Origin: a virus
Strand: one strand, 5' to 3'
DNA: 38,286 bases
IMG/VR virus record: IMGVR_UViG_3300030116_002979
Location: 5,561 to 43,846 of that record
Below, piece by piece: positions 4,228 to 6,999 of the stretch. The number at the start of each line of letters is the position of its first letter. The stretch's first letter is position 1. The notes beneath the pieces were generated by a model. The model had not been told where the DNA came from. It worked only from the letters and a program-made list of their open reading frames with translations, and did not search any database. The translations under genes were made by a program, and so were the position numbers.

Positions 4228-4774
4228 TTATCTTGTTTTTTACATAATCAAACATATCATTACCAATTTTCTCACCAAGCTCAGAATCAGATTTATAATG
4301 TGCTCTACCAACTCTTCTACTTAATGATATATCTTTTCCTTCTTTTTCAAATTCATTTTTATGTTGAGGATATAACTTACCTAATGCTTTACCTATCAAA
4401 ATTCCTTGCACTGAGTGACCAGAGGGATATGATGGTGTTTTCATTGAATCCATTTCTACATCTTCAAGCTTCATACCAAAAGATCCAGCTAAGTGTTTAG
4501 GTCTAGGTCTATTGAAATGTTTTTTTAATTTTAATATTTTAGGAGCGCTTTCTTCTATAAGACTAGATATTAGTTTTTTAGGAAAAGGTAAACCTTTAGC
4601 TTCAGTTATTTTTTTAAATGCTGACTCTTGATTATCTTTTTCTTTTACAAAACTAGGATCTTTACGCATCCCATTTATTTCTTTTAACTCTTTTAAAGTA
4701 ACCAAGGAATTATCTTTTGGTGGTTTTAACTTTTTATACTTATCTATATTAAAACCAGATAGTATTCCTTTCAT
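4220..4774 (-). CDS. PAP2-family phosphatase, soluble type
   Basis: A 184-residue protein with the full tripartite signature of PAP2 / vanadium-haloperoxidase-like phosphatases: K84-x6-R91-P92 (KKHFNRPRP), P117-S-G-H120, and S152-R-x5-H159-x3-D163. H159 would be the nucleophile and H120 the acid in the known mechanism. The family dephosphorylates lipid phosphates such as undecaprenyl pyrophosphate or phosphatidate, or acts as nonspecific acid phosphatase. Here no transmembrane segments or signal peptide are visible, so it resembles soluble acid phosphatases more than membrane PgpB-type enzymes. The first 75 residues are charged and unassigned. It sits directly before and overlaps the endolysin gene, and its start overlaps the preceding stop as TAATG. 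Substrate is unknown; a role in envelope breakdown or phosphate release is inference from position. Confidence 0.9.
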   Translation of the reverse strand: MKGILSGFNIDKYKKLKPPKDNSLVTLKELKEINGMRKDPSFVKEKDNQESAFKKITEAKGLPFPKKLISSLIEESAPKILKLKKHFNRPRPKHLAGSFGMKLEDVEMDSMKTPSYPSGHSVQGILIGKALGKLYPQHKNEFEKEGKDISLSRRVGRAHYKSDSELGEKIGNDMFDYVKNKING

Positions 4775-5007
4775 TATTTTTTTGTTTTTCTTCCTTTTCT
4801 TGCTTTACCCTTTACAGCATCATCTATATCACCTAACTGATTACCAACTTCTTTTATAGCATCAGCAACATCAGCTAGCTCTTGAGCAGTTAATTTATAT
4901 CTTTTCTTAATCTCTTGTACTGTAGCGATAGCTTTTTCATCTATAGTAGTTTTACTCCATAGAGCTTTCCACATATCTTTCCAGTACTGTTTAGTTAATT
5001 TCCACAT
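4774..5007 (-). CDS. Small charged helical phage protein (unknown function)
   Basis: A 77-residue protein. The N-terminal 20 residues are Trp/Lys-rich and amphipathic (three or four Trp), the middle (about 23-65) is predicted helical with the segment LADVADAIKEVGNQLGDIDD, and the C-terminus is a basic tail ending KGRKTKK. No membrane segment or enzymatic motif is visible. Similar short proteins with an AIKEVGNQLGDI-type helix occur in marine phages as I recall, without known function. It sits between the secreted thioredoxin-like gene and the PAP2/M15 pair. Its stop overlaps the PAP2 start as TAATG, which ties it to the lysis cassette; an amphipathic membrane-active role is possible but unproven. 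Confidence 0.75.
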   Translation of the reverse strand: MWKLTKQYWKDMWKALWSKTTIDEKAIATVQEIKKRYKLTAQELADVADAIKEVGNQLGDIDDAVKGKARKGRKTKK

Positions 5008-5035
5008 ATTACTATTATATTAATTTATATTTATT

Positions 5036-5074
5036 CTAACAAAGGCCACAATAGCCATTACATATTGGACACAT
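5036..5074 (-). CDS. Possible 12-residue four-cysteine micropeptide, MCPICNGYCGLC
   Basis: In the 71-base gap between two genes, the minus strand reads ATG, eleven sense codons and TAG, giving MCPICNGYCGLC. Four of twelve residues are cysteine in the spacing CxxC-x3-CxxC, as in zinc or iron-sulfur binding knuckles. The start is preceded by TTTTAAAATT, the same type of A/T-only leader found before other late genes here, and the gene order and strand fit the operon. The frame starts 5 bases after the thioredoxin-like gene ends and stops 29 bases before the next start. Twelve codons can be open by chance, but the chance of this cysteine pattern is low. Function is unknown; translation is not proven. 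Confidence 0.5.
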   Translation of the reverse strand: MCPICNGYCGLC

Positions 5075-5078
5075 AATT

Positions 5079-5486
5079 TTAAAATTTACTTGCGTTATTA
5101 ATTTCATCTATTGATTCTTGTATTTCTTCTAAATCAGTAGGAAGCTCTAAATCTAAACCAGCTTTCCAACTTGCTTCTACTGTTCCATTTTTAATTATAA
5201 AAATAGTAGGTGCCATACGTACCTTATATTCTTTTTTTGTTTTAGGTGCTTTAGCTATATCAACTCTATAATAGCTAGCATCTTTTATTTCACTCCATTC
5301 TGCAAAACAATTTGCTTCATTAAACTTAGCCCAAAATTCTATTACTATTGTTTCATCGTTGTCATCACCAAAAGCGCCACTAGATATAGTATCTTCAAAA
5401 TTACTATCATCTAACCAATATTTTTCAGGCACATCAACTTGTGCAAATGATATAAATGGTATTAAAATTAAAATTAAGTTTTTCAT
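5079..5486 (-). CDS. Secreted thioredoxin-fold protein lacking the CxxC motif
   Basis: A 135-residue protein with an N-terminal signal peptide (hydrophobic about 3-14, cleavage likely after SFAQ at 16), so it should enter the periplasm or be a lipid-free secreted protein. The remainder has the thioredoxin pattern: TIVIEFWAKF (about 47-55), a central VDIAK strand, and the cis-proline element RMAPTIFIIKNG with P93. The redox site is altered: where CGPC is expected there is N56-E-A-N59, followed by a single C60. It is therefore unlikely to be a standard dithiol oxidoreductase; a binding or chaperone role or a one-cysteine chemistry is possible. The signal type is characteristic of flavobacteria, suggesting host origin. 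The start overlaps the stop of the upstream membrane gene as TAATG. Confidence 0.8.
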   Translation of the reverse strand: MKNLILILIPFISFAQVDVPEKYWLDDSNFEDTISSGAFGDDNDETIVIEFWAKFNEANCFAEWSEIKDASYYRVDIAKAPKTKKEYKVRMAPTIFIIKNGTVEASWKAGLDLELPTDLEEIQESIDEINNASKF

Positions 5487-5808: not shown

Positions 5809-6999
5809 TTATCTAAATGTATAATTAATTCCAAAGTTTGAGTTAAACATTTCTGAGTCCCAGAATTTAGTATACTCACCTTCAATAAATAAACCTATTG
5901 ATTTACTAAGTTTCACACCAAATACTAAACCGGCTTGATAATCACTCCATTGTTCACCATCTAACAAATCATTGTGACCACCTTTACCCCAGCTGTTTCT
6001 ATGTAGGTAACTAAAATCTTCATTACCTTGTACATATTTATGATATGGTAATATCCAGTTTCCGTAAGCATGAAGCCAAAAGTTTGATTTATAGTGATAA
6101 AAATCAAAACCGACAATAGGTGCAACTTCACCAAAAGACTCTAATTCAGACCATGCTTCTTGATTATATCTATTCAACAACATGGGCATTATAAGATCTC
6201 TAAACTGAGCATCTGTCCAAGCTACTACATTTCCATCTGGATCAGTCCAATACCAATCACCAAATGAATTACCATTTTCATCAGTAGAAGAATAATACCA
6301 ATCATCATATCCGTAATCAAATCCTAACGTGAACCAATAGTTAACCGGATCACCATCTTCATCTATTTCATTTAACCATATTTCTACAGGATTATAACCA
6401 TAAGGACGTTGATGTGTTCTGTATATTGCACCAGCAGATATACTAAATTTCTTACCAATAGGTAAACGAGCCCTTAATTCACCAGACATGTATTCAAAAT
6501 CTATTTTACCAGTTTCTCTAGCTTCAAACTTAGCTATGTGATAATCACCAGTATGTCTAACAAATAATCTTTTATTATTAAACTCGTTACCATTAAATCT
6601 TTCTTTTTCAATATGAAGTAAATACTCTAAACCTTGTACAGCTGAAGTAGGAGCAGATAAACCTACTTGTTTTTCTACAGCTTGATTACCAGTCCAGAAG
6701 TTACCAGGTTTTTTTTCATATCCAAACCTACCTAGTTTACGTATACCAAAACCATACCTATAATTAAAAGGATGGTATTTAGCTCTGTCTTCTACTTGTG
6801 GTATACCGTAGAAGTCATCTGGATTTGTACGTATGAAATAATTAGGTTGAACTGATTGAGCGTTTTCTATATTACCAGCTGCATATAAAGTTCCATATTT
6901 TAAAAAATCACTATATAATTCTTTAAAAATGTTTTTCTTTTCCTGCGCTTGTAAATTAAACGTTATTAGTATAGTTAGTATGGTTAATATTTTTTTCAT
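5809..6999 (-). CDS. Predicted outer-membrane beta-barrel protein encoded by the phage
   Basis: A 396-residue protein with a clear signal peptide (hydrophobic 4-15, cleavage likely after LQAQ at about 19). The mature part is rich in Tyr, Trp, Phe and Gly with many alternating strands, for example KFSISAGAIYRTH, YWFTLGFDYGYDDW and SIGLFIEGEYTKFWD, and ends in NYTFR; a C-terminal aromatic-rich strand is the mark of many outer-membrane barrels. Loops contain acidic repeats such as DEDGDP and DENGNSFGD. The leader type is flavobacterial. It sits between the giant ejection protein and the membrane/lysis genes, so it is probably made late. Possible roles are outer-membrane permeabilisation, receptor masking or superinfection exclusion; a virion role cannot be excluded. 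I do not recognise the exact family. Confidence 0.75.
   Translation of the reverse strand: MKKILTILTILITFNLQAQEKKNIFKELYSDFLKYGTLYAAGNIENAQSVQPNYFIRTNPDDFYGIPQVEDRAKYHPFNYRYGFGIRKLGRFGYEKKPGNFWTGNQAVEKQVGLSAPTSAVQGLEYLLHIEKERFNGNEFNNKRLFVRHTGDYHIAKFEARETGKIDFEYMSGELRARLPIGKKFSISAGAIYRTHQRPYGYNPVEIWLNEIDEDGDPVNYWFTLGFDYGYDDWYYSSTDENGNSFGDWYWTDPDGNVVAWTDAQFRDLIMPMLLNRYNQEAWSELESFGEVAPIVGFDFYHYKSNFWLHAYGNWILPYHKYVQGNEDFSYLHRNSWGKGGHNDLLDGEQWSDYQAGLVFGVKLSKSIGLFIEGEYTKFWDSEMFNSNFGINYTFR

Follow-up and report, generated by a model that had tools for sequence, protein, structure and literature searches.

A conserved 12-codon, four-cysteine phage gene and its family, which overlap the signal peptides of late genes in many relatives

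A microgene of 12 codons plus a stop, located at 5036-5074 on the minus strand of the window (the whole 38,286-nt stretch analysed, taken from IMG/VR record IMGVR_UViG_3300030116_002979), translates as MCPICNGYCGLC and has the pattern CxxC-x3-CxxC. Comparison of related sequences indicates that selection acts on this peptide frame and that the microgene is a real, conserved gene, one of a family of approximately 84 peptides under purifying selection in their own frame. The four-cysteine frame pointed out in the earlier note is therefore borne out by its translation and its conservation in relatives, and the family is larger than first noted. The microgene is the sole match to CxxCx3CxxC-stop in the 43.8-kb viral record, in which a reversed control pattern has no match. 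The terminase of this record shares 46% identity with that of Flavobacterium elemo phages and 38% with that of Cellulophaga phages, indicating that the source is a podophage-like virus of Bacteroidota.

The microgene occupies a 71-bp gap (5008-5078) between the genes for a secreted thioredoxin-like protein of 135 aa upstream (5079..5486, minus strand; PF00085, E=3e-7) and for a 77-aa protein downstream (4774..5007, minus strand), for which the family search gave no known family. Adjacent genes abut or overlap, in agreement with the earlier description of this interval as the only sizable gap in this part of the operon. The spacer between the thioredoxin-like stop and the microgene ATG (5075..5078, minus strand) is 4 nt long, which fits translational coupling. 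An A/T-only leader had also been proposed; a 14-nt A/T-only run does precede the ATG, but most of it belongs to the 3' end of the upstream thioredoxin-like gene, so that it gives no independent evidence for a leader. In the window, an upstream in-frame ATG inside the thioredoxin-like gene would yield a form of 23 aa (5036..5107, minus strand), MKLITQVNFKI-MCPICNGYCGLC, which is not conserved; since this ATG is out of frame or absent in most relatives, the 12-aa form is the conserved product. The +1 frame across the microgene (5020..5085, minus strand), ILKLCVQYVMAIVAFVRININ followed by a stop, is closed in the window and forms the signal peptide of the next gene in relatives. A secreted 396-aa protein of family F2, with no Pfam match and membrane-barrel-like by eye, is encoded at 5809..6999 on the minus strand; its Leu/Ile-rich signal peptide lacks the microgene, which is carried out of frame by the F2 signal peptides of some relatives. 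The large subunit of ribonucleotide reductase (847-2571), with a C-terminal CLSCDG, is encoded convergently with the lysis-region operon.

Relatives were fetched through the thioredoxin-like and 77-aa proteins, the microgene itself not being used, and single-base changes were counted on minimum spanning trees of the haplotypes obtained through these neighbouring genes. Where no gene overlaps the microgene, 18 synonymous and 4 non-synonymous changes were counted (21% synonymous expected, P=3e-9), which is the synonymous change that the earlier note had proposed to look for. The ratio is 14:4 when Cys codons are left out because the search partly imposes their conservation, and the +1 frame of the same non-overlapped copies gives 5:18. 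Frameshifts, lost starts and random substitutions at Cys codons, the changes that would speak against a gene, were sought in the relatives and none was found. Decayed copies were also sought in thioredoxin-anchored loci without the gene; none was detected, and the best matches equalled those in shuffled DNA. This own-frame excess of synonymous changes, with start and stop intact, characterizes the microgene as protein-coding, and its length places it below annotation limits, so that it would be missed by gene callers as had been anticipated.

Searches with the peptide as degenerate DNA identified the exact window peptide in 12 contigs and, in IMG/VR, C-x-h-C-G-G-x-C-G-h-C-stop in 65, MCP[F/Y]CxxCICK in 25, and MCxxCxGxCxxC-stop in 63; the chance expectation, for a search space gauged from 18 chance-like matches of a related pattern, is approximately 0.1 for the 65-contig pattern and 6 for the 63-contig pattern. 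In total, approximately 84 distinct related peptides of 11-19 aa were found in approximately 141 distinct phage contexts, numbers that depend on the search patterns and are lower bounds, as one greedy regular expression undercounts copies (e.g. in G018). An initial genome-wide pattern in which the gaps were left free proved too loose. Many uncultured marine phages carry the family, and most contexts are relatives of Flavobacterium/Cellulophaga podophages. Exactly four Cys are present in 78 of the 84 peptides and five in the other 6; the C-terminal residue is Cys in 76, and the last Cys lies at most two residues from the C-terminus in all 84. Cys spacing is 2-3-2 (CxxCx3CxxC) in 63 peptides, 2-2-1 in 8, 2-2-2 in 4, and of other types in the remainder. 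The alleles are diverse (MCPFCEICICK, MCELCGGHCGLC, MCGIPNCPFCIGC, MENICPICIGCGFC, and MTNEKINPCPLCGGICGIC), all with at least four Cys near the C-terminus.

GTDB genomes yielded only four matching contigs, all from marine MAGs, and a bacterial origin was rejected, at least three of the four looking like phage sequence by their gene families, which are those of the phage clade. The GTDB MAGs with contigs bearing the genes of this clade (L239-L242) are labelled Woesearchaeota and Maricaulis, probably reflecting binning contamination. No clear copy was found in the isolates elemoE and phi38:1, the Manatee Spring record, or those parts of pelagiphage and other isolate genomes that were fetched. 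Fused tetra-Cys modules, considered as a replacement for the free gene, were seen twice and are too rare to account for its absence: a 90-aa protein carrying CPTCGPACDC close to the N-terminus (L295:7659-7931) and a tail-fibre-like protein with a C-terminal CNKCKNCNCNA (L298:535-4980). Variable Cys modules are also found N-terminally in F10, a family of basic late proteins.

Outside the Flavobacterium/Cellulophaga-type clade, 16 contigs carry MCEYCKGEC[LP]GC or MCE[YC]CGGGC[GR]GC. These copies form two groups and sit directly behind AAGGAGG or TAGGAGG, a strong Shine-Dalgarno site, in place of which the Bacteroidota-type copies have A/T-rich leaders. Their neighbours share 52 and 47% identity with Pelagibacter phage proteins, none of the hallmark genes of the clade was seen on these contigs, and in several of them the microgene stop abuts or overlaps the start signals of the following gene. 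Apart from these copies, a Shine-Dalgarno-anchored scan returned only chance-like matches, mostly out of frame or containing stops. On the pelagiphage-like contigs L303 and L307, a 62-aa gene (L307:3660-3848) with a Cys/His-rich N-terminus, CKNCEHECHHTNGESCHCGCANCEH, lies directly upstream of the Shine-Dalgarno-led microgene.

The reading that we favour, with only slightly better than even confidence, is that this late-region protein-coding microgene is translated by restart and that its cytoplasmic product is a tetrathiolate metal clip, most likely for Zn2+. Ribosomes ending the upstream gene would restart at the ATG a few bases on, and in the pelagiphage-like groups initiation would occur instead at the strong Shine-Dalgarno site. 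The product of 11-19 residues would remain in the cytoplasm, where its four thiolates may wrap one metal ion to form a minimal clip, acting either by itself or clamped onto a protein of the host or a late protein of the phage. At least four Cys are always present, in CxxC or CPxCG-like pairs, and a metal-binding peptide, as the earlier note had suggested, is still the best guess from these invariant residues. A profile search against solved structures gave only weak matches (E of at least 1), namely rubrerythrin and the zinc knuckles (C-x-L/I-C-G-G-Y) of RING/HIT fingers. The variable Cys spacing argues against one fixed metal geometry, and zinc binding is not universal among Cys4 proteins (PMC11241148).

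The thioredoxin-like neighbour has a signal peptide, whereas the microprotein has none, and EFWAKFNExNC is kept in all 80 relatives, CxxC being replaced by NExN followed by one Cys; it is probably a secreted thioredoxin fold that is redox-dead, as judged from these residues. The four-cysteine ORF starts +3 to +12 nt from the thioredoxin-like stop in 48 of the 80 thioredoxin-anchored loci, and in 17 further loci the microgene lies at another junction, 0.8-2.6 kb off and inside the fetched flank. The earlier idea that the two products act together did not hold up: joint action is unlikely with a secreted protein whose gene often lies at a distance from the microgene, and a co-acting thioredoxin was rejected both on position (other junctions, pelagiphage-like contigs) and on topology. 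CPYC is the glutaredoxin site. The resemblance of CP[ILFYV]C to it, together with the neighbour that lacks CxxC, would suit a mini-redoxin whose CPxC pairs cycle as dithiol and disulfide, perhaps serving the thioredoxin-like protein or the phage ribonucleotide reductase. We regard this as unlikely, since the Pro varies (CELC, CAIC, and CSIC also occur), conservation extends to all four Cys rather than to a single pair, many copies of the gene lie elsewhere than beside the thioredoxin-like gene, and their product lacks a signal peptide.

Alleles are replaced between near-identical genomes as a unit of 33-36 bp. L114 and L116 share 99.8% identity over 1.4 kb upstream, 100% across the final 300 nt of the thioredoxin-like gene, and 97% downstream; nevertheless, one carries MCPFCEICICK and the other MCELCGGHCGLC, a complete allele exchange. 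The gene can also be absent: L127, closely related to L132, lacks the microgene, and four near-complete genomes (G004, G013, G015, and G016) have no free copy, indicating that the microgene is accessory and dispensable in some backgrounds. A comparison of gene content between eight genomes with and five without the microgene revealed no clear partner. Allele exchange would fit a role facing the host or a rival as well as it would fit loose structural constraint. A peptide directed at the host or at competitors (anti-defence, exclusion, or a modified peptide), with alleles swapped as targets differ, would also account for the many alleles and the clean presence/absence differences. It is nevertheless unlikely, as the conserved part consists of Cys and Gly and not of a variable surface, and the clustered neighbouring families included none recognisable as a modification enzyme or a defence marker.

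An iron-sulphur peptide, the natural counterpart of the ferredoxin maquettes, is distinctly unlikely. Synthetic CxxCxxC 16-mers bind [4Fe4S] even when the residues separating the Cys are all Gly (PMC10946529), and CxxCxxCxxC and CxxCxxCxC occur in 4 and 8 of the phage peptides, respectively. However, Cys spacing is immutable for cluster formation (PMC10946529), and this spacing is broken by the CxxCx3CxxC of 63 of the 84 peptides; CxxCxxC with a fourth Cys, as in 4Fe4S ferredoxins, is present in only 12. Like members of the family, the maquettes are Cys-rich peptides of about this length, and they hold a metal centre such as is predicted for the phage peptides; they differ from the family in being synthetic and in needing CxxCxxC, which most family members break (PMC10946529).

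A regulatory leader, a Cys-rich uORF whose translation would sense cysteine or control expression of the next gene, would be consistent with a short, Cys-rich frame that in many genomes adjoins the next gene or overlaps it. We consider this very improbable: the spacing to the next start varies by gene family, the downstream gene itself varies, many copies overlap nothing, and non-Cys residues (Pro, Gly, Tyr, and Leu) are kept as well. Leaders and attenuators have a fixed position ahead of the gene they regulate and alternative RNA structures; at the window site there was no Rfam match and folding was no better than that of shuffles, and a known RNA element was rejected on the same grounds.

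The +1 frame that covers the microgene continues into the downstream gene in 74 of 105 contexts, mostly as its signal peptide, whereas 29 contexts, including the window, have no gene in that frame. Most overlapped genes belong to three unrelated families, F2 (barrel-like), F6, and F7 (both lipoproteins), and the same peptides occur in unrelated gene contexts. The +1 peptide has a GRAVY of 2.69 and 1% polar residues when overlapped, compared with 1.66 and 17% when not. Overlapped F2 signal peptides are rich in Ala and Val (A+V 0.42, L+I 0.21), whereas free ones are rich in Leu and Ile (A+V 0.12, L+I 0.39), and the signal peptides of F6 and F7 shift in the same way. The wobble base of the Pro codon is T in 68 of 70 overlapped copies, where the other frame reads Leu, and A in 20 of 24 non-overlapped copies, where it reads Gln/His; the Pro is kept, and its wobble base appears to serve the other frame. 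Synonymous and non-synonymous changes in overlapped copies number 23:15 in the micro frame and 14:29 in the +1 frame, the former being more constrained. The signal-peptide shift, the codon test, and the wobble switch together indicate that both frames are used, and constrained, where they overlap. At the thioredoxin-like stop of L104 and L137, the microgene shares one spot with two further frames: the thioredoxin-like gene, which ends there, and a lipoprotein/secreted gene of the HFAAG type, which begins there. That the microgene is an unused by-product of Val/Ala-rich signal peptides, whose codons for Val/Ala/Gly can be read as TGY and GGN (Cys/Gly) in another frame and which overlap it in many contexts, is scarcely credible and was rejected by the codon test and the non-overlapped copies, since the 29 contexts without a +1 gene conserve the micro frame despite their polar, less hydrophobic +1 peptide, free F2 signal peptides never contain the microgene (0 of 85), and the micro frame is the more constrained even when overlapped.

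Metallothioneins and phytochelatins are Cys-rich, with variable spacing and little fold. The phage peptides share these features, but metallothioneins and phytochelatins, compared here by description only, are longer or enzyme-made and contain more Cys. Thioredoxins and glutaredoxins have a fold of approximately 80 aa or more with CxxC, for which a product of 11-19 aa is too short, and the neighbour has the PF00085 fold and no CxxC. The haloarchaeal C(P)XCG zinc-finger micro-proteins, which are predicted metal clips, are likewise small, with four Cys and a CPxCG pair, but they carry two C(P)XCG motifs in 30-70 aa, with none below 30 aa in H. volcanii (PMC11241148); the phage peptides have 11-19 aa and a second pair that ends the protein (CGLC-stop), and their size and single CPxCG-like motif exclude them from this group in its published sense. 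The nearest architectural parallel is Rz1, a phage lysis gene embedded in Rz and, like the microgene, a small gene that annotation misses and that is read in a different frame from the secreted or membrane late gene in which it lies (PMC6139136). Rz1, however, is a lipoprotein of the lysis machinery, whereas the microgene, which encodes a tiny Cys peptide, is embedded in three or more unrelated host genes, between which it moves, and elsewhere stands by itself. The open-licence papers searched contained no account of a similar family. For every known family compared, a defining feature is lacking in the phage peptides; the novelty claimed concerns the gene family and its dual coding and not a function. 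The wider proposal, which we put forward tentatively and at a little under even confidence, is an unrecognised class of phage genes for tetra-cysteine metallopeptides of 11-19 residues. Such genes, exchanged as whole alleles, would overprint unrelated late genes and so determine their signal peptides, and would occur in phages infecting two or more bacterial phyla.

Abundant marine phages contain conserved protein genes of only 11-12 codons, too short for the length limits of annotation, and overlapped and free signal peptides, together with whole-allele swaps, provide natural experiments on dual coding. The predicted metal binding can be checked cheaply through synthesis of the 12-mer; if it is true, the tetra-cysteine metallopeptide genes would be among the shortest conserved metalloprotein genes.
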